64,000 nucleotides of DNA from positions 36,941,001-37,005,000 of the forward strand of contig NC_088931.1 of assembly GCF_038396675.1 (NCBI RefSeq). The letters run 5' to 3'. This document shows, in pieces, positions 7,321 to 27,259 of this stretch (within the stretch, counting starts at the first letter, position 1; every line of letters begins with the position of its first letter). The translations under genes were made by a program, and so were the position numbers. This DNA comes from Hydra vulgaris (taxonomy: Eukaryota > Cnidaria > Hydrozoa > Anthoathecata > Hydridae). The notes beneath the pieces are model-generated. The model did no database searches, was not told where the DNA came from, and worked only from the letters and a program-made list of their open reading frames with translations.

Positions 7321-8573
7321 AAAATTCTCTTGAATTAAGGTCTACTTTTAATTTGCCATCTTATAAACTTATTAGTCAAACAAGAGGAGGTGGAAAAAAA
7401 GGTGGAGGGTTAGGGCTTTATGTCTCAAAAAAGCATGATTTTAAAGTAAAAAACATACTATGCTTCTCAAACGATAATTATGAAAGCCTTTTCATTGAAA
7501 TTATAAATAAAAAAATTCAAAGTATTTTAATTGGATGCGTTTATCGTCCACCAAGTGGTAAAATCAAATCATTTCAAACTTTTATCAAAAATACAATTGA
7601 AAAAATAAATAAAGAAAATAAAACTTTATACGTTATTGGAGACAAGAATCTTGATGCTTTAACTTATATAATGTCTCCGAAAATAAAATTATTTTTTGAT
7701 ATGCTTCTTAAATTTAATGTCTTGTCAGCAATTAATAAGCCAACACGAGTGTCAAAAAGCTCGGCAACGGCAATAGACAATATTTTAATTAATAATTACC
7801 TGGAAATGGAATTAGAAACCGGGATTTTTATAACTGATATTAGCGATCACTTTCCAATATTTATTAAAGTAAGAAATTTAAAAGCCATGTCTGATTGTGA
7901 ACCAAAAGTTATAAATTTGAAAAAACGCAATCTCAAAACAAGCAATACTAACGAGTTATCAATTAGACTAAGACAAGAAACGTGGTCCAACGTGTACAGA
8001 TGTCATGACACTAACGAAGCTTTTGATAATTTTTTAGATATATACCTAGATTGCTTTAATGAAACCTGTCCTCAAGAGAACAAACAAATTAAGACAAAAG
8101 CAGTTGCCAATCCGTGGATCGATAAATCACTGATAAAATGCTCAAAAAAGAAGCAAAAACTATATAATAAATTAAAAAAAAATAAAAACACTGAAAATGA
8201 GATAAATTACAAAAATTATAAATATTTTGACCAAAATCTTATTAAAAAGGCTAAAAATAAATACTACAGTAATCAAATCATTAAACGCAAATTCGATAAT
8301 AAGAAAACGTGGTCCATCATTAATGAGATAATGGGAAGGAAAAAAATAAATTCAACTTCTTTACCAAAAAGAATTAATATTAACAACACTGACATATTCT
8401 GTAAAAAACAAATCTCGAAAGAATTTAACAAATATTTTATAAATATTGGTCCTAATCTCGCCAATAAAATAAGTCCAACATCTGATTCTTTTAAAAACTA
8501 CCTAAAACCCGCAAATAACGTTATCATGTATGATAATGAATTTAACTATAAAGAATTCGAAGAAGCCTTTTAA
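7321..8573 (+). pseudogene. LINE ORF2, endonuclease domain (APE-type)
   Basis: The open frame 7353-8573 encodes the second half of an apurinic-type endonuclease: G-G-G-L-G-L-Y-V, then I-G-C-V-Y-R-P-P-S, Y-V-I-G-D-K-N-L-D, F-D-M-L-L-K-F-N-V, P-T-R-V-S-K-S-S-A-T-A-I-D-N-I, and T-D-I-S-D-H-F-P-I-F. The catalytic D-x-N (GDKNLD) and the SDH motif are present, though the usual F of G-D-F-N is replaced by K. The N-terminal endonuclease residues lie upstream of 7353 in broken sequence. The following lysine-rich linker (K-x-T-W-S-I-I-N-E-I-M-G) is the usual region between endonuclease and RT. The frame ends just before the RT domain. Confidence 0.8.
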
Positions 8574-16120: not shown

Positions 16121-16317
16121 TCAATTTATGGAATGGGAAACGAAGCACAAAATTTTTACCTTTTTAGCAAAAAAAAAATTGAAAAATTAGTTAAAATTTG
16201 CCAAACCTATGTGCGATTAATATCAAGTATAAAATTTTAAATCTCACATGGTATATACCAAGCTATAAAACTGCATTGTGCAGAAAAATAAACACAAAAA
16301 TACTAATTGCTTTCATT

Positions 16318-18586
16318 CAGTGGTGGGATTCAAATATTTTAGGAACCATCGTTTTTCGATGCATGATGCATCCAAGTACTACAGATTTGCAATTGTATGT
16401 ATATGGATATAAACAAAATAAAAATAAAACAAAGACAACTCATACACATATTTATTTCAAGTAATTCCAAGTAATAGCAGCTTGATTTTTATTACAGATA
16501 TTCAAATTTTTTTGTTTTACACAATTGCCACCAGAATGATTTTGTCTTAATTTTACAGATTATTGGGGATCCCAGTCTTCTAGTGGTAGACCCAACAAAT
16601 CATTAAATTGTTTACATTTCATTAAATTGTTCTAAGTAGTCATTAAATTGTTCACATTTTCAACAAAAAACCTACTCCTTTTACTTGAATAGATAATATT
16701 CATTTTTGAAAAGCCTCTTTCAGCTTCTGCTGAACTGACAGCTATGGTATTCACAATGCTTTCGGCCTTTCTAATATTTGGTTGTATGGCGTGGTTATCA
16801 TCATTCTGTATTGCACTTTCAAAAAAGCTTGTAAAATCATTAAATCAATTTTGTAGGAGAAAATTTCCTGAAACATGCGAAGTTTTTCTTCTGCCTTTAT
16901 CCATGGTATAGTGAACCTTTCAATATTCCATGATATAGGTTCTACCAAGTTTATGAGATCATGCACTACTGCAAAACTTTGCATTACTGCAGAAAAATTC
17001 ATGCAGAACAGGATAATTCCTCCACATTTCTCGTGCTGCTCTCAAACTACACGCAGCCCATCTTGGCTCTAAAACTCTGCCTATTTTCAAGATCTCCTGT
17101 CCCAGCTGCTGAGAAATACTGTACTGCTGCATTTGATTTTTGTTTGGCTGATGAAAGATTGAATATATCTTATCCATAAAGATTTTGAAGTGATAAACTT
17201 GTTTTATTTCCTTTATGTCATCATTCAAAACAAGTTGCAGCTGATGGTTTAAGCAATGCCAAAGTATAATGCTTGGAAAATTTTTCATCAGCCTAACACC
17301 CACACCTGAAGATTGTTCAAGCATCACGCTGGCCCCATCTACGCAAAAATCAATGAGATTTTTTTTCAAAAAATCCATACCAAAACCAACATACCAAAAA
17401 AAACTATTCAACGTTTCTACGAAGCACCTGTGATAGATTATCAGAACAGGCTTACTTGATATTATAGAAGCTTCACCAACAATGACTCATATTTTACGGC
17501 CTTCTTCCATAATCTTTGAAAATATTTGACCTCTAATGTCCTTTACTGTGTGAAATTTTACTGCAGTTTTGCGGGAATGAACCTTATTGCTAAGCTTTAC
17601 ACTGTGTTGAACTGATGTACTTCTCATTAGCTTTATCAATTTTTTTGGTAATGGTATAATGTTTACAGGCATCAACTTGATTTATACAAATTGTATGAGC
17701 CTTGGATGTAAAATGTTCATTTATTTTCTTTCTGAGGGAAGCTTGCTGGGTTGTTTTGCTCTTCCCTAATGCTAATACTTGACACTTTTTCCATTCTATT
17801 AAAATATGTACGCCTTTCATATTCAGAGAATTAAATTTTCCACAATGCAAGCAACCAAGTTTTTTGCCCTGCATAATTAATCCATTATATTTTTGTTTAA
17901 ATGATACTGCTTCACACTCCAGCAGTCTGGAAGTTGTTGTTCTTGCTGAACAGCGTTGGGAGCTTAGGTGGTACTCATTTATTCCTGTAGCATAGTATCC
18001 TGAGATGAATCAGCAGTTTTTTCTTGTGGCACTGCATTAGGAACTATTATGGCATCTGTTTCTTCTTCTATCATAGCATCATGCAGGGATGCATTATCAG
18101 TAGCTGAAGACAAAGCAGCCTCATCCAGAGTAATTTCTTACTTTCTGTACAAAGTGGAACATGCTCTTATGTCTCTTCATTTTCAGGATTTATTCTAATA
18201 AATAACCAAAGATACAACATGTATCAATTCAAGACTTTTTTACATTGTGGCGATCATAATGTCTATTGAACGTTATCTAACATTGTTGGCTTTGGACCTC
18301 ATATTAATTTAAACTATTATTTATAACATAATAACTTACTTTATTAAAGTTGTTTTCAATATTTCGATGTAATACGGTGTAATATCCAATATTTGTAATT
18401 TTAATTGTGTTTTGTCTTCGTCAGGGGAGCCATTTTTGATGTATGACAACTCCGAGTAATTAAATATTGCGAAAGCGCTATATTTCGTTACGTTTTCCAA
18501 GGATTTAGTAACCGGTTCGCAGAGTATGTTCCTGTCCAAGAACCGGTTCTTGCAAACCGGTGTGAACCAGCTGAATCCCACCACTA
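16318..18586 (-). mobile_element. hAT element with 15-bp TIRs and KIAA1586-like transposase
   Basis: The left end CAGTGGTGGGATTCA (16,318-16,332) and the right end TGAATCCCACCACTA (18,572-18,586) are inverted repeats with one mismatch. Flanking octamers CTTTCATT and TTTTCATC share TTTCAT, a partly decayed 8-bp target duplication. Both the CAG..CTG-type termini and the duplication length fit hAT. The interior carries a minus-strand transposase remnant, so the element is a decayed autonomous copy of about 2.27 kb. Confidence 0.8.
16600..18150 (-). pseudogene. hAT transposase, KIAA1586/ZBED-like
   Basis: The N-terminal piece 17,590-17,874 has L-G-C-L-H-C-G-K and later H-F-T-S-K-A-H, a C2H2-type finger preceded by S-L-R-K-K-I, as in KIAA1586-like proteins. 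The middle piece 16,959-17,411 has F-C-V-D-G-A-S-V-M-L (an hAT catalytic-Asp region), L-W-H-C-L-N-H-Q-L-Q-L, F-M-D-K-I-Y-S, and L-K-I-G-R-V-L-E-P-R-W-A-A-C-S (the conserved R-W motif). Below 16,950 lies a further piece with F-T-I-P-W-I. The segment between the two N-terminal blocks (about 17,420-17,580) is frameshifted, and the dimerisation domain at the C-terminus is not clearly preserved. Not functional. Confidence 0.75.
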
Positions 18587-18872
18587 TTTTCATCTTACCA
18601 TAGAATGAAAAGGGAATAACTAGGGTTTGAGTTTTAATCACCAGGATTATACTTTTTTACTCTTAGCTAAAAATTATAATCTTAAATTTGCATATTTGAA
18701 TATGGAAACCATTTTTTAATGTTAGCAATAAACAAAATTATTCTTACCATAGATTTTTTTTTTCTTTCCTAAACTATTAGTTAATGATCAATAGAGTAAA
18801 CTTCAGATCTTGAAAATTAATAAACTAAAACCGTTTTGCAACAGTATCTAACTCACTGTTTATCTAACACCA
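18587..18872. other. No gene recognised
   Basis: Short AT-rich spacer between the hAT element and the fold-back element. Confidence 0.5.
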
Positions 18873-19566
18873 TATTTTCATTATAATACAAATCTAAATG
18901 ATACTCTTCTGAATGTGAAGATACCTATGTGTTTATATTATAATATTTGTTTTAATTGCATACTCTCCTTTGCATAAAGAAGATTCTGGTGATACAGCAA
19001 TATAAAAACAAAAGTTCACAGTAAATTTCTTTTAATTAACAAGACTTAATTTTTTTCTGTTAAATATCTCTTTATATTTCCTAACATTATTTCATCTTAG
19101 TGTGGATATCACGATATAAAATTAGAATATTAAATATGATATAAAACTATATACCGTAAATTCGCCTAAGTTCGGTCACTTAAGCTTCGAACATTTATTT
19201 ATCACGCATAAATAAAAAAATTTCAATTTTTTTTCCTGTAACATACAAAAAAATATATTGATAATTATCCACACTAAAATGAAATAATGTTGGTAGAAAA
19301 AAATTATAAAGATTTTGTTAATTAAAAGAAGTTTGCTGTGAATTTTTGTTTTTATAGTGCTGTATCACCAATTATTAATTAATCTGTAGCTGTAAGTTTT
19401 TTTTAGCTTGCCTGAAAAAGCAGTTTGAAAATATCTTCTTAATCTGGTCAATGAATCTTCTTTATGAAAAGGAGAGTAAGCAATTAAAACAAATATTATA
19501 ATATATACACATAGGTATCTTCACATTCAGAAGAGTATCATTAGATTTGTATTATAATGAAAAAAT
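18873..19566. mobile_element. Fold-back (long inverted repeat) element
   Basis: The outer arm 18,873-19,111 pairs in inverted orientation with 19,258-19,566. Shared blocks include CATTATAATACAAATCTAA, ACTCTTCTGAATGTGAAGA, TACTCTCCTTT, GTGATACAGCA and TATTTCATCTTAGTGTGGAT. The right arm contains an extra block of about 85 bp (about 19,365-19,450) missing from the left. The central spacer has no coding content. This architecture is that of a fold-back or long-TIR MITE. The target duplication was not identified. Confidence 0.8.
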
Positions 19567-19820
19567 TATTTACATAAAGTTCTTAACTTGCTTCACTTAC
19601 TTTGTCACTAACACATGAATGTTCAGATGAAACAATGTTTTTAAATATATGTGGCTATGAAAATAATTGTTTTTTTTAGGCATTGTTTATTCTATTCCAT
19701 TGTCTGTCATACTTTTTTATTTCGTTTGGGAAAGATGTTTCAATGAAGAGTCAAGATTAATGTATAATTGAAGTCTAAAATTAAATAGATATTATATAAT
19801 AGAAAAAGGAAGGTTACTAA

Positions 19821-20013
19821 CAGGGCCGCCGAGAGCCGTCACGCTGCCTGGGACAGCAACCCTGATTGGTACCCTTATTTATCAAAATTTCCCGATAGTA
19901 TAGATGAAGGAACCTTTTTTTTTTCATGTACCTTTTTCTTTCGGCGCCCCTTAGATATCTGCCGCACGGGACAAACTGTCTTTTTCATCCCCTTCCCGCT
20001 CTAGGCGGCTCTG
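19821..20013. mobile_element. hAT MITE, 193 bp, exact 8-bp target duplication
   Basis: Begins CAGGGCCGCCGAGAGC and ends GCTCTAGGCGGCTCTG, an imperfect TIR of about 16 bp with CAG..CTG termini. The octamer GTTACTAA occurs exactly on both sides (19,813-19,820 and 20,014-20,021). The interior is GC-rich with no frame. The 8-bp duplication and end sequence are diagnostic of the hAT superfamily; the perfect duplication indicates a recent insertion. Confidence 0.92.
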
Positions 20014-20181
20014 GTTACTAATATTCTGTAAAACTAGCATTCAGGAAAATTTAACTGAAAATCAAAAGGAAAGAAAAATAAGTATGTAAATTGAAGTCAA
20101 TTACTAATTATAACAAATTTATATACTAATTAAATTAGTATATGGACTTGTTCTAATTAGTAATACACATACTTATTTTTT

Positions 20182-20253
20182 ATATTATTTATTATATATG
20201 TGTTTGTTCTGATTATTAGAATAAAAAGCAAACACATATATAATAAATAATAT
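20182..20253. repeat. Perfect hairpin, 25-bp stem, 22-nt loop
   Basis: The left arm 20,182-20,206 (ends TATATATGTGTTTG) is exactly complementary to 20,229-20,253. Confidence 0.9.
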
Positions 20254-20308
20254 CTTTGTTTATTGCACAACAGATTTTGTGATGACTATGACTACAAAAC
20301 CATTTTCT

Positions 20309-20369
20309 GTATGAAGTTTTTTTGTATGAAGTTTTTTTGGATGAAGTTTTTTTGGATGAAGTTTTTTTG
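20309..20369. repeat. 15-bp tandem repeat, 4 copies
   Basis: The unit (G)TATGAAGTTTTTTT, changing to GGATGAAGTTTTTTT in the last two copies, repeats with an exact 15-bp period. Confidence 0.9.
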
Positions 20370-20795
20370 TTAAGTGACACAAAAAAAAAGAGTCATTTAT
20401 GTTTGGGAAAATATTTAGACAGAATAAAAAAATTAAGATCTTCAGGTTTTTTATAAATTGTAAATTTTTGTGTCCGGATAAACTAACCTTTCATTTAGAT
20501 CTTCGTTTACATATATATAAAGCTAACAGCATTAGGTGTTAATAATTATTAATAATTTATATAACAAACCATTAGTTTCTTACCATGTTGTAGCAATCTT
20601 GACATTTCCAAAATTTATCTTTGTTTTCAAAAGAAATATGGTTGATTTTTTCGCATTCCTTATGAAACCATGGTTACAAGTATAACATTGAACATTTGCC
20701 AACAAATAAAAATGAGCCTTTTTAATATAGCTAATTTTTTACCTAACTGGTATGCTAATGCTGGTCTCTATTATTCATTCCACGCACTCCATATT

Positions 20796-21380: not shown

Positions 21381-21670
21381 CAATGAGTTAGTAACATATT
21401 TTCAATTGAGGGCTGGGTGGGCCAAAAATTAGAGGTTCCAATCATTACAATTCTTTGCAAAATATTCTTATTCAAGATAAGCATGAACATACAAAAGTTT
21501 AAAGTTTGCACAATGTCTGTAAGTGCCAAAAGTCAAACATGTAATATAAAACCTTCCAAATATTGTTCTATCTGACGGAATCCAAATTATCCTGCAAGAA
21601 CAGTACAGTTTTAATTTAAGTTCCTTTGGAGAGCATCTGCAGCTTCCATTATAATTTTTACTACCAGAGA

Positions 21671-21737
21671 CGTGGTGGGAATCGAACTCGGAACTTCTCA
21701 CTTATGAAGCGAGCGCTCTACCACTACACCACTATCG
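21671..21737 (-). repeat. tRNA-like sequence, probable SINE head (anticodon CAT)
   Basis: On the minus strand, TGTAGTGGTAGAGC reads as a D-arm/A box, CTCGC-TTCATAA-GTGAG as a five-pair anticodon arm with a 7-nt loop and anticodon CAT (Met), and GAGTTCGATTCC as a T-loop/B box. The T stem pairs poorly and the acceptor ends do not pair well, so a functional tRNA is unlikely. A tRNA-derived SINE with an internal Pol III promoter fits better. The downstream body would lie toward 21,230. Confidence 0.55.
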
Positions 21738-21784
21738 CATATGTTTATCGCATATTTGTAAGTGGAAAAGAAATTATTAAATGT

Positions 21785-23165
21785 TTTATTAAGCAAAAAA
21801 GGGCTTTCTTTGATCAAACCAAATATCTTCTACCGGACACCTGTTTTGTGATAAGATAAATTCAATAGACGCTATTGAAAACAAACCACAATCAATACCA
21901 CCATTTTGTTGCTGTACTGAGAGCACTTTTACTGTTATCTTATCTTTTTTGTACTTAAAAAGGGCACATATTTGTTTTTGTATTTCAAGGCTTAAACACT
22001 TATCAAAGTTACTTTCAAGTACATTTATTTCACCTTATGTACAACCATATGTACTGATGGCAAGCCAATGGTAATCCCCATTATATATAATTTATACAAA
22101 TGGTAAAGAACCAAGAACATCAAACTATAATAATTGTCCCAATATGGGATCTTGAAGTCCATTTGCATATGGGTTAGCTTTCTTTAACATATCTTGGAAA
22201 TATTTGATAACTGTATCGGATAACATTCGATTTTTTGAAATGTCTTCAAAATCTTCTTGTGAAAGTAAAGAATAATTTCTTTCAAAACCGATTTTCCTGA
22301 ACAGTCATTTTTCAAAAAATGTTTCATTGTAAGAGAATTTGTTTGAAAAGTTTCTTCACCAGTTATTTGATCTTCAGCAATAATTGATTCCTATACTGGT
22401 GCTTCCTGAGAGTTGCTTTCAACATTTATTGTAGAGGCTACCATCAACTTATCCTTTTTTTCCCCGCACGATTTGAATGAAAAAAATTTTTAACAACAGG
22501 TAAATGTACATAATTATGCATACCATAACCTGAACTTAATGGTAGACCTTTCTTGCTTGATAAAGCTTTTTGACTATATTTCAACGTGTTTCATCTAGAT
22601 CACATAGTTCTTCTAATGATTTATTAAAATCAAATGTTAAATTTGTTATGCTTATTAACACTTCGCGGACTACAGAGGCCGTAGAGTTTCTTTTCCTTGT
22701 ACTATCTTGATATGGATTTGTTGATGTTGTACTGCAAATAGTGTCATTAATTAAGTTGAAACTAGCATGCTTTACATGATTACGTTTGAGTATATACACA
22801 AAATCATTGGTGAATGTTTCAATATTTAAAAATGGAGAACTTCTATATAAAGATGATATAAACTCCCATCCCCATGTTAGTAGGTACTTTCTAAAAGTTA
22901 TAAAAAAGTGTTTGTGTAGATAAGAAGATTTGAACCACCATTACATGAACATTTTGGCATGTTCTTCTCATCACAAGGTAAAGTGAATAAGGTAATTTTT
23001 GTTTGCAATAGAAAAGCTATTGACAACAAATACTCCAAGATCTTTATTTAGATCAGTATTGTTAGCCAAATTTTGAAATGTTTAATAATATGATGAGGCT
23101 TATTTATCAAGAATTCAGGTACATTAGAACTGTATTGTTTAAATGGACAATCCATTTAATCTGAA
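21785..23165 (-). pseudogene. SWIM-like zinc finger plus Ulp1 (C48) protease gene remnant, Mutator-like
   Basis: Minus strand. About 22,990-22,830 encodes K-C-S-C-N (SWIM-like CxC) followed by W-G-W-E-F-I-S-S-L-Y-R-S-S-P-F, the tryptophan-rich stretch that follows SWIM fingers in Mutator-type proteins. 22,799-22,581 is a Ser/Thr/Arg-rich linker. From about 22,260 comes a cysteine-protease domain: N-R-M-L-S-D-T-V-I-K-Y-F-Q, then D-Y-H-W-L-A-I-S-T (catalytic His, about 22,070), G-E-I-N-V-L-E-S (the position of the catalytic Asp/Asn region) and V-Q-Q-Q-N-G-G-I-D-C-G-L-F-S-I-A (catalytic Cys, about 21,885). The His and Cys order is that of Ulp1/SENP-type C48 peptidases. Several stops and frameshifts interrupt it. 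I could not see a MULE DDE domain upstream, because a (TA)n array begins at 23,199. Assignment to a Mutator-like element is inferred from the SWIM finger. Confidence 0.65.
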
Positions 23166-23196: not shown

Positions 23197-23297
<101 letters not shown>

Positions 23298-23661
23298 GGG
23301 AGACCGGGACACGTTGGCCCACGAGGTTGCTTAGCCCATTCGAGTTTATTCAAAGTTTAGACGCTTTAACAAGGTGGGAATCTAAGTGAAGGTTGGTAGT
23401 AATTCAATCCTTTTTTAAAAAAAAAATCATATTTATTGGACTATATTTAAGTGTGTGGGGCCGTTTTAACAATTTTTGATACATCAAAGTAAATTTTGAA
23501 AAACTTTTTTAACGTGTTTATACTCAGTGACGTTTGACAGTACAGCATTATTCAAGTGCCATATTTAAAGCTTATAATGTAAGGATTATTTTAGTATATA
23601 ATGTTCCACAAAATTAGTTGATGGTTTAAGGAGAAAGTTGTTCATACTCTGAACATGACAA

Positions 23662-23702
23662 TGGGGCAGATTGGCCCGATGCAACCGGGCCAATCTGCCC
23701 CA
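23662..23702. repeat. Subterminal hairpin of pogo element 1 (left)
   Basis: TGGGGCAGATTGGCCCG (23,662-23,678) and its exact reverse complement (23,686-23,702) around ATGCAAC. GATTGGCCC resembles GTTGGCCC of the TIR, so it may be an internal transposase binding site (inference). Confidence 0.85.
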
Positions 23703-24290
23703 TTTATAAAATAGTTCGGGTAATTTGTGACGGAAAAACTGTTTTTGTTATAAAAATATTAAAACTTGTAAAACATGTTAGATCAGAAATAAGCCTCATA
23801 AACAAATAGGCTTTTTTTTTTATACATTTTTTTGGGTTTTATACGTCGATAATAAGAAAATATCACTCGTATACATAATATTTAAATTTGGATAAATAAT
23901 CTTATTATAAAATGTAATTTTAACTTAGATTTACGGATGTCTAAACTTAAATATTGTATTGCATTGTATATATTTATATATTATTATTATATATATTATT
24001 TAACTTATAATATAACTTATATATGTAAGTTTAATTGACATTTAAACTTTTACATACTAGTTATACTTACATATATAAATTTAATATGACATGAGTTATG
24101 TAAACTATTAATGATTAAAAGTAAATAAGTATTTAGTATTTTAAAAATGAAAAATATAAAATGTAATTTTTTAAATATATAAGTATACAGGTATATAAAT
24201 AATTAAATAAAAAAGAAATAGTTAAATATAAAACATGTAATAAAGTAATGTACTTTCGGTTTTTGCATTTTTTTTAGACCTACCTAAAAA

Positions 24291-26284
24291 TGGTACGTAA
24301 TTATCTTTGCAAGTCACAACCTGGAAAAATGGTCGAAATAAACAATGTTATTGGCAGTGATACAAATTACAAAATATAAAAGATTAATTAGAGCAGTTAG
24401 CAGAGAATTTAATATACCACGTAAGACTCTAGGAAGGTATTACTTATCCAAAAGGTTGCCATCTACATCTAATGCTTAGGTTCAAACTGAAGTAGAACTT
24501 GATTGCCAAGTGAATCAAATTCTAACAATGATTACACACTTGAGTTTGATGTTACTGCAACAGTACATAAGCCTAATGCAGAACATACGCCTGATAATGC
24601 AGCTGTAGGGAGAGATTTACTATCACTTAAATTAGATAATAAAAACCCTGGCACAAGTTTGACTATGCCAAAAGATTTCAAGTATTTCTATTTTCTCCAA
24701 CTAATTTGAATATAGTTTAGTTCTTTAATTTATTTAAACATTTAATAAGATACTTTAATAGAAAACACTGCTTTAATATATTTAAAATTTTGAATTTTTT
24801 TAGAGACTGAGACAGATACCTAATATGATTTTATTGTTTATGTTCAATGGTAATATATATTTTATATTTCTTTAGGTATTTGAACCTGAGCAGGAAGTTT
24901 TGCTTGAAGAATACCTAATGAAAGCAAGTGATATTTATTTTGGTCATTCTCCTAAAGAAGTTTGGCGATTGCTTATACATATGCTGTTGCTTGTACCAGA
25001 AAAATTCTTCACTCATGGATAGAACTTCAATCTGCTGGTAGTGATTGGTTTTCCGGATTCTTAAAAAGGCATCCAAAGCTTTTTATTCGCTCTCCTCAAA
25101 CAACAATTTTAGCTCGGTGCACAAGTTTTAATAAACATAATTTAAATTTTCTTATTGACAACTTAAGCAATGTTTTGACTAGGTTAAAATTAAGTGCTTC
25201 AGACATTTGGAACATTGATGAGACTGGAATCACAACAGTGCAGCGGCTTGATTGTGTTGTCGCACATAGAGGCTTTCGCCAGATAGTTCGAATAACATCA
25301 ACAGAAAGAGGAGCATTAGTGGATATGGCTTTGGCGGTTAGTGCTATTGGCAATAGCATACCTCCATAGTTTATCTTTCCCAGAGTTAATTTTAAATCTC
25401 GCTTTATTCGTGATGGACCAATAGGATGTGACGGATCAGTACATTCTTCAGGATGGATGACAGAGACAAATTTTCTTAAATGTATCAAACATCTTTCTAT
25501 CCATTCACGTTGTTCCAATGATTGACAATCAGAGCTCTTATCTTGATACAGCAGTACTTGATTTTTGAAAAAGAAAATGGTATCACACTTTTATCTTTTC
25601 CAGCACACTGTAGTCATAAATTACAATCATTAGATAGAAGTGTTTATGCTCCTTTTAAAAAGTTTGTGAACTCAGCATGTGATGCATGGGTTACTGTAAA
25701 CAAACGACCTATGACTATCTATGACAGACCTGGTATAGTAAAAACAGCACTTCCTAATGCTATAACTCAAAGGAACATAATTAGTGGTTTCCAAGCAACA
25801 GGTATTTGTCCATTTAACAGAGATTTTTTTTTTACTCCAAACACTTCACTTATACCGTCTCCTGAAGAAGTGAGGTCTTTTGAAAAAGCTCAGCCTAGAA
25901 AAAACAATGTAAATAAGGTCAGAAATCGGATCCGAATTTCTGCTATATTAACTGATACACCAGTTAAAAAAGCAACAGGAACAGAAAGAAGCAAAAGAAA
26001 AAAAATAAAAGGACCCAAAAAATAAAAAACTATTTTCTATCAAAGAAGCCGGTCCAAGTAACACTAAAACAGGCAAGATTTTTGCCAGTCAACCTGTAAA
26101 AGAAAAACGCAACAGGAAAAATAAAGATGATAATGAGGAAGATGTCTTGTGTCTTAGTTGCTTCAAACTGTTCTCAAACAGCCTTCCAGGTGCTGTGTGG
26201 ATACAGTGTTCAAGCTATCAGTGTTGGGCCCATGTGAGTCGTGTAAAAAAAGATGCAAAGGGGTTAGATTATAAATGTTTATAA
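24291..26284 (+). pseudogene. pogo/Tigger transposase (DDE_1) with C-terminal Cys-rich finger
   Basis: Starts at M-V-R-N (24,291), as does the better copy at 33,463. It continues through a broken psq helix-turn-helix (I-P-R-K-T-L-G-R-Y-Y about 24,417) and a CENP-B-type helix region ending W-F-S-G-F-L-K-R-H-P-K-L (about 25,050). The catalytic core begins at I-W-N-I-D-E-T-G-I-T-T-V (25,205; first Asp), with F-I-R-D-G-P-I-G-C-D-G-S (25,405). The second-Asp block is frameshifted at about 25,520. L-S-F-P-A-H-C-S-H-K-L-Q-S-L-D (25,585) holds the third Asp, and G-F-Q-A-T-G-I-C-P-F-N follows (25,785). The tail has C-L-S-C-F (26,150) and W-I-Q-C-S-S-Y-Q-C-W-A-H (26,200), a PHD-like finger. Stops at 25,370 and elsewhere disable it. 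Confidence 0.8.
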
Positions 26285-26540
26285 TGTTGTTAAATAAAAT
26301 GTTGTTGTTGTATTGTGTTTTACTTCATTTTTTTGTAGTTTATTGTTTTAAAGTTGTTTCAATTTTATTTAATTAAGTTAAAAAGTTGTTTGTTTTATCA
26401 ACTAATCATCAGTTGTTTGTTTCATCAACCAATCAATTTTTTTGTTTCATCAAATTGTAAAATTGTTTTTGCTCAATGAGCATTTTCCTACCTCAAAGTC
26501 TGCCATAAGTTGTATGTGGGCCAACCTGTCCCAATCCTTC

Positions 26541-26574
26541 GGCCAACCTACCCCGATAACGGGGTAGTTTGGCC
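26541..26574. repeat. Subterminal hairpin of pogo element 1 (right)
   Basis: GGCCAACCTACCCCG pairs with CGGGGTAGTTTGGCC (one mismatch) around ATAA. GGCCAAC resembles the TIR, as does GGGCCAACCTGTCCC at 26,517. Confidence 0.85.
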
Positions 26575-26760
26575 CACCCGATATGACTTAATAAAAACAG
26601 TTTTAAATGTGTTGAAAAGCTATTATGAACTTTTAATGTTTTTTCCGGATAGTCTAGGGAAAAGTCAATTTTTTTCCAAAAAAAAATAAATTAAAAAATA
26701 AAAAGCTTAAAAGTTACACATCAAGGAAAAAAAAGCGGGCCAACGTGCCCCGGTTTCCCC

Positions 26761-26850: not shown

Positions 26851-26956
26851 GTATGTATGTATAAATATAGATATACATATATATATACATATACATATAT
26901 ACATATATATACATATATTGCATATATACTACAATAAAAATTTTTAAAATACTTAC

Positions 26957-27259
26957 TTCTCAAATTTATCTGCAAAAAACTCTTCTATTAAAAGAGTAAG
27001 CATTCCAGTAATTGATGAATTTTGTTCATGGACTTCTAAATTAAAAAATATGTTATTAACTATATAATATATTTATTACATTTACTTTATTTATAACATT
27101 GTTATAAACAAAATAAATAAACTCAAAATAAATTCTGCATTTATTAAACTGAAAATGTTTGTATATTACATTACCTTTTATATTTCCGCTTTCATCATCA
27201 GGGCTTATTTCATCAGAACTGCTGAGATTCAAATTTTCGCCATATATAGATAAACCCAT
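26957..27259 (-). CDS. Hypothetical gene start, two exons
   Basis: ATG at 27,257-27,259 opens an 85-nt exon (27,175-27,259) rich in Ser, Asp and Glu (S-S-S-D-E-I-S-P-D-D-E-S), ending at AAAG|GTAATG. A 79-nt exon (26,957-27,035) follows after an acceptor TTTAG. It continues the frame as E-V-H-E-Q-N-S-S-I-T-G-M-L and ends at GAA|GTAAGT. No later exon is visible; microsatellites and pogo element 1 occupy the downstream side. The upstream side is repeat B (27,365-27,425), so this may be the first part of a transposon-encoded gene. I do not recognise the protein; splice signals and open phase are the only evidence. Confidence 0.3.

Follow-up and report, generated by a model that had tools for sequence, protein, structure and literature searches.

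Plant KI-MULEs (Kaonashi elements) are Mutator-like elements (MULEs) that carry an Ulp1-like protease. A 2010 study (PMC2836005) cites plant MULEs with Ulp1, as well as hydra MuDR-type transposons with Ulp1 (Bao and Jurka 2008, as cited there). According to a figure legend in that study, Ulp1 and PHD domains of Ginger1 and Mutator transposases were aligned, and a hydra Ginger1 with both domains is listed; SWIM is not mentioned. In PMC6446971, MULE groups are tabulated, many of them with SWIM fingers, the target duplications, where given, are mostly 9 bp, and the cnidarian element MuDR-6_HM carries an OTU gene. PMC12220107 places MULE-MuDR among the putatively active elements of Hydra AEP and not among the more highly expressed ones. 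Our literature search, which covered few subscription papers and is weak evidence of absence, returned nothing joining Ulp1, SWIM and a transposase in Hydra. At the same scope, mostly without subscription papers, it returned no Zisupton with Ulp1, no Ulp1-protease transposon with a SWIM zinc finger, nothing joining three of MULE transposase, Ulp1, PHD finger and SWIM domain, no ZSWIM-Mutator domestication and no ALS2CR8-transposase link.

The window, the whole stretch of DNA analysed here, spans 64 kb (C12:36941001-37005000) and has a G+C content of 23-35% in 2-kb steps; searches of its own genome covered 911.5 Mb on 15 contigs. It very probably holds a dead Hydra Mutator-like element lacking its DDE exon, from a family with the order CARF-like motif, MULE DDE, SWIM, Ulp1 and PHD. 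This kind of element is already known, and the window adds one more dead copy. The first-pass annotation had proposed a new case of a mobile element with such a protease, which was not borne out because hydra Mutator elements with Ulp1 had been published by 2010 (PMC2836005). Compared by description and not letter by letter, the hydra MuDR elements with Ulp1, as cited there, share the combination of Mutator transposase and Ulp1 with the family studied here, whereas the window copy has no DDE exon.

All minus-strand motifs noted in the first pass were present, spread over broken frames. A CxC motif (CSC) with a W-rich segment lay at ~22.96-22.83 kb, the histidine motif YHWLAIST at ~22.07 kb, and the cysteine motif (GGIDCGLF; QQQNGGIDCGLF) at ~21.90 kb. 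The extent first given, 21785-23165, fell short of the whole remnant, to which exons at 27036-26956 and 20727-20395 and a 3' tail reaching at least to 18588 were added (Table 1). The minus-strand exons were colinear in the window (27036-26956, 23294-21405, 20727-20395). The flank of the upstream exon (27231-26929) showed 89% DNA identity to positions 1-296 of a sibling copy, L036, over 303 columns. Among the smaller inserts of the 3' tail, one at ~18870-19265 was missing from the siblings. The siblings continue beyond 18588 through a nested repeat, and the 3' end of the element presumably lies past that point.

Table 1 Features of the element copy, of its inserts and of the N-terminal frame in two paralogues. 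Positions are those of the window unless a locus is named.
Feature	Position	Strand	Evidence
Conserved upstream MULE-family exon (NSSITGMLTLLIEEFFADKFEK)	26956..27036	-	tblastn matches in 16 fetched loci, which are 13 distinct places
Presumed pogo/Tigger-like transposon beside simple repeats, splitting the MULE remnant; ends approximate	23297..26742	+	Inverted ends
Main exon plus flank, frame-broken: SWIM-like finger (decayed) followed by Ulp1/C48	21753..23294	-	L049, 85.3% DNA identity, 1637 columns
SWIM-like segment (CxC, W-rich stretch) that has lost the third ligand	22830..22984	-	Alignment with L049 CSCNDWFRSSYLCKHF
Ulp1/C48 catalytic domain remnant	21789..22280	-	Four best other genome matches, 87-90% amino acid identity; C48 in L049, E 0.00062
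Short tRNA-like insert within the remnant, absent from L049/L050	21660..21750	-	blastn gap from 21753 to 21652; letters
Remnant resuming beyond the short insert	21405..21652	-	L049, 91% (126 columns) and 78% (156 columns)
Remnant of the PHD finger exon (WFHKECEKINHISFENKDKFWKCQDCY)	20395..20727	-	L050, 85.5% over 346 columns; tblastn E 3.8e-20 and 1.2e-16
Colinear 3' tail, broken by smaller inserts	18588..20395	-	Matches to the C8 copy and sibling copies
N-terminal CARF-like frame	L049 5617-5916; L050 717-959	-; +	Pfam

The window copy is a pseudogene: it has no DDE exon, is broken by stops and frameshifts, and is split by a pogo-like element. Aligned with the paralogue on contig C5 (L049), its main exon was 91.8% identical across 1379 gap-free columns, and 8 of the 13 gaps were not multiples of three, with some 5' intron included in the aligned stretch. 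At the third zinc ligand of the finger, the window copy does not have Cys (YLHKHFF vs YLCKHFF in L049). The C48 catalytic triad is His-Asp-Cys, and its Asp was lost (VLES vs VLDS). In profile searches the two domains named in the first pass fared differently. C48 was recovered below threshold from the window fragments (E 0.018, 15.3 bits against a cut-off of 20.7) and from the read-through (E 0.017), while neither the fragments nor the read-through gave a Pfam SWIM match. YopJ-type and other weak Pfam matches scored like C48 on the fragments, and a sequence search of the PDB gave a single match, yeast Ulp1 (1euv), at E 0.068. Chance likeness was excluded because the stretch is 85.3% identical at the DNA level, over 1637 columns, to L049, in which the SWIM pattern and C48 occur. 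The best match to the MULE exon in the 64-kb window had an E of 0.79, and MULE-type probes from three other loci (L010, L005, L017) matched nothing there. A match to the next exon at 8115 (E 0.013, opposite strand) was taken as chance.

To place the remnant among its relatives, its Ulp1 piece was searched against its own genome, and the best 150 of 592 candidates were scored, on all 15 contigs; with only the best candidates scored, the counts are lower bounds and an absent match is not proof of absence. Leaving the window itself aside, the four best matches were 87-90% identical over 158-161 residues. The one on C5 sits in a stop-free open frame of 555 aa (L049), and several of the nearest matches contain stops. 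The layout of the family was read from L049 (C5), L050 together with L052 (C8), and L051 (C7). On the coding strand, the paralogues carry a CARF/ALS2CR8-like N-terminal motif, MULE DDE, SWIM, Ulp1 and PHD in that order, over several open frames. Part of the likeness between L049 and L050 may be due to segmental duplication, since each lies within ~60 kb of a contig end.

The N-terminal frame matched PF15299 (ALS2CR8/CARF) barely over the cut-off (E 1.2e-6, 29.1 bits against 28.9), and the MULE frame of L049 matched both PF10551 (8.4e-11) and PF21056, the ZSWIM1-3 RNaseH-like profile (3.2e-13), over their cut-offs. Near-identical MULE exons occur in L050 and L051, and Pfam also recognized MULE DDE in L017 (2.6e-19). 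A Zisupton/KDZ identity had been considered and was abandoned once MULE cores were found. Between the MULE frame and the 555-aa frame, the family layout has a short exon, NSSITGMLTLLIEEFF. In the 555-aa frame the SWIM pattern CSCNDWFRSSYLCKHF was recognized by eye, with no Pfam SWIM match in L049, and C48 reached 20.1 bits (E 0.00062), just below the cut-off of 20.7. The PHD frame of L050 was over the cut-off (E 1.2e-6). SWIM and Ulp1 belong to a single transposon gene, as first proposed, both in this 555-aa frame and in three relatives (L021, L023, L024) whose SWIM and C48 were each over the cut-off in one frame (C48 E 4.9e-6, 2.3e-6 and 4.5e-6, respectively).

The L050 MULE exon was likewise searched, with the best 150 of 565 candidates scored. 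Counting up to 4, 6 and 10 kb upstream of Ulp1, 67, 69 and 71 of the 150 scored Ulp1 matches had a same-strand MULE match, at a median distance of ~2.0 kb, and other placements (downstream or on the opposite strand) numbered 0, 0 and 1 of 150 at these distances. The MULE DDE sought in the paralogues is thus present, and in L049, L050 and L051, the three nearest full paralogues fetched, the MULE exon lies ~2 kb upstream. Paralogues without a transposase were also looked for as a sign of a host protease family and were not found; yet among the 20 nearest scored Ulp1 matches (window included), the 6 kb upstream contain a scored MULE match in only 6. Two long C48 frames in the genome (L001 and L002), which are presumably host SENP genes, would favor reading the remnant as a decayed host SUMO-protease (SENP-like) gene. 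However, the 150 scored matches over all 15 contigs and their linkage to MULE argue against such a gene, and L001 and L002 fall across the 100/99 branch of the Ulp1 tree (described below) from the remnant's lineage, making this reading extremely unlikely.

Two near copies bear on a further possibility, that a MULE-Ulp1 gene was domesticated by the host and later died. L034 passes from the N-terminal exon to the SWIM-Ulp1 exon and skips the DDE exons, and L030 jumps from the N-terminal exon into the SWIM-Ulp1 exon with part of SWIM cut. Such copies, keeping the N-terminal exon and Ulp1, would suit a domesticated gene, but copies are many, several of the nearest carry stops, and nothing pointed to one conserved locus. 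Domestication is therefore highly improbable, and L030 and L034 are DDE-less deletion derivatives.

Of 365 inverted repeats surrounding the window copy, the 25 longest all proved to be AT microsatellites. Four relatives at different places (L019, L023, L024, L026) were 94-96% alike across almost the full length of their 9-kb loci and showed no terminal inverted repeats (TIRs) within them; because the likeness runs nearly throughout, their ends lie outside these loci. Neither a TIR nor a target duplication of the remnant's own family was seen within any of the loci examined.

A TIR-bounded, MULE-like element with Ulp1 does exist in this genome. In L010, a 967-aa frame with C48 (3.8e-16) lies inside 126-bp inverted repeats that are 98.4% alike, with a 9-bp target duplication, TAAAATCTA. 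L012 has ends of the L010 type, a shorter interior and a 9-bp duplication, CAAAAAAGT, on both sides. The L010 frame matched almost the whole MULE profile at E 0.017 and SWIM at 0.01, both below the cut-off. The core of L010 was 42-52% identical to L003-L008; these loci had been considered as close kin of the remnant, which was rejected in favor of a separate lineage, the one to which L010 belongs. C48 was strong in L007 (2.5e-18). We describe this lineage as MULE-like and not as a second MULE family because Pfam recognized neither MULE nor SWIM in the frames tried of L003, L005 and L007. The L010 lineage is probably MULE, judged by its weak profile match together with its long TIRs and 9-bp duplication.

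Two other loci, L020 and L027, are Ginger1-like, with integrase-type frames, Ulp1 and TIRs. L020 matched rve_3 at E 0.001 (below the cut-off), Ulp1 at 2.9e-7 and PHD at 7.1e-5 (just below the cut-off), and its Ginger1-like assignment also rests on the letters of its frames. The inverted ends of L020 read CCGGTGTCACAGGAAATTTTGCTGC, and at the ends as taken there was no target duplication of 3-10 bp. Like the remnant's family, hydra Ginger1 has Ulp1 and PHD towards the C-terminus, and the Ulp1 domains of L020 and L027 are 32-34% identical to that of the remnant. In contrast to the MULE core and SWIM of the remnant's family, the core of Ginger1 is of the integrase type. An integrase probe from L020 matched only L020, L027 and L022 (called Ginger1 from a 30% integrase match alone); the window and L049-L051 gave no match. 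Some of the distant Ulp1 matches in the genome may be Ginger1 and not MULE.

To compare the Ulp1 domains, we built a tree of 19 rows, with seven from the remnant's lineage, three from Ginger1, five from the MULE-like lineage, L001 and L002, L011, and L016. A 100/99 branch separated the remnant's lineage and Ginger1 from the MULE-like lineage, L001/L002, L011 and L016, and neither the remnant's lineage nor Ginger1 formed a clade within their side. In a 12-row tree, which drops the window, L024, L027, L004, L006, L011 and L016, a single clade of both Ulp1-bearing lineages was rejected (p-AU 0.00026) and a clade of the remnant's lineage alone was not rejected (p 0.205). These trees have few rows from one genome, long branches that drew a tool warning, and groups tested after BLAST and a first tree had been inspected. 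New in detail is the placement, in these trees, of the remnant's Ulp1 with Ginger1 and apart from the second lineage. The same-side placement, the shared PHD and Ulp1 domains, and the hydra Ginger1 with both domains in print (PMC2836005) would fit a remnant that belongs to Ginger1 itself. Nevertheless, the conserved SWIM segment, the MULE exon ~2 kb upstream in L049-L051 and the silent integrase probe make a Ginger1 identity very unlikely.

For a MULE remnant, the plain reading of the trees would be that Ulp1 was gained at least twice, with one gain common to Ginger1 through module exchange and the direction of exchange left open. The first-pass suggestion of an independent case stands narrowly, in that the two Ulp1-bearing lineages, the second only probably MULE, are not one Ulp1 clade. 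We tentatively entertain, as somewhat less than an even chance, a broader scenario in which an Ulp1(+PHD) module moved between superfamilies. The Ulp1 of the remnant's MULE lineage would then share its origin with Ginger1 and have been gained apart from the second MULE-like lineage, protease capture by cut-and-paste elements would be a recurrent, modular process within a single animal genome, and the MULE lineage would also be a candidate source of vertebrate CARF and ZSWIM1/3. ZSWIM1/ZSWIM3 and CARF (ALS2CR8) are vertebrate host genes; in L049 the MULE exon matches the profile of the former, PF21056, and the N-terminal exon that of the latter, PF15299, hinting that these genes may derive from such MULEs.

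If a copy were functional, its MULE core would excise the element and insert it at another place, and the SWIM finger, by analogy with its family, would bind DNA. The Ulp1 domain may remove SUMO or a similar tag, either from the transposase or from factors of repair or silencing at the site, and the PHD finger may read histone tails and thereby steer or hold the complex. The window copy would yield no such protein. SUMO-protease-type domains, apparently of more than one origin, occur within a single Hydra genome in a MULE lineage, in a second, MULE-like lineage and in Ginger1, which suggests repeated gain of a protease by DNA transposons. TIR-bounded elements such as L010 make the role of these proteases in transposition testable.

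Other repeats lie within the remnant. The element that splits it has near-matching inverted ends, GGGGAGACCGGGACACGTTGGCCC and GGGGAAACCGGGGCACGTTGGCCC, and a DDE_1 match (E 0.0023, below its cut-off) in an ORF at 25522-26025; we take it to be pogo/Tigger-like. Its interior at 23320-24900 is a many-copy repeat in its own right, and it has a Cys-rich C-terminal ORF at 26009-26284 with no Pfam match at E 0.01. ARAGORN called no tRNA in the tRNA-like insert at 21660-21750, which may be a SINE. Another repeat, at 16316-18588, lies within the 3' tail and has an ORF at 17590-18009 with no Pfam match at E 0.01. On the minus strand it starts with GGTGGGATTCAGCTGGTTC, and several sibling copies run into it.
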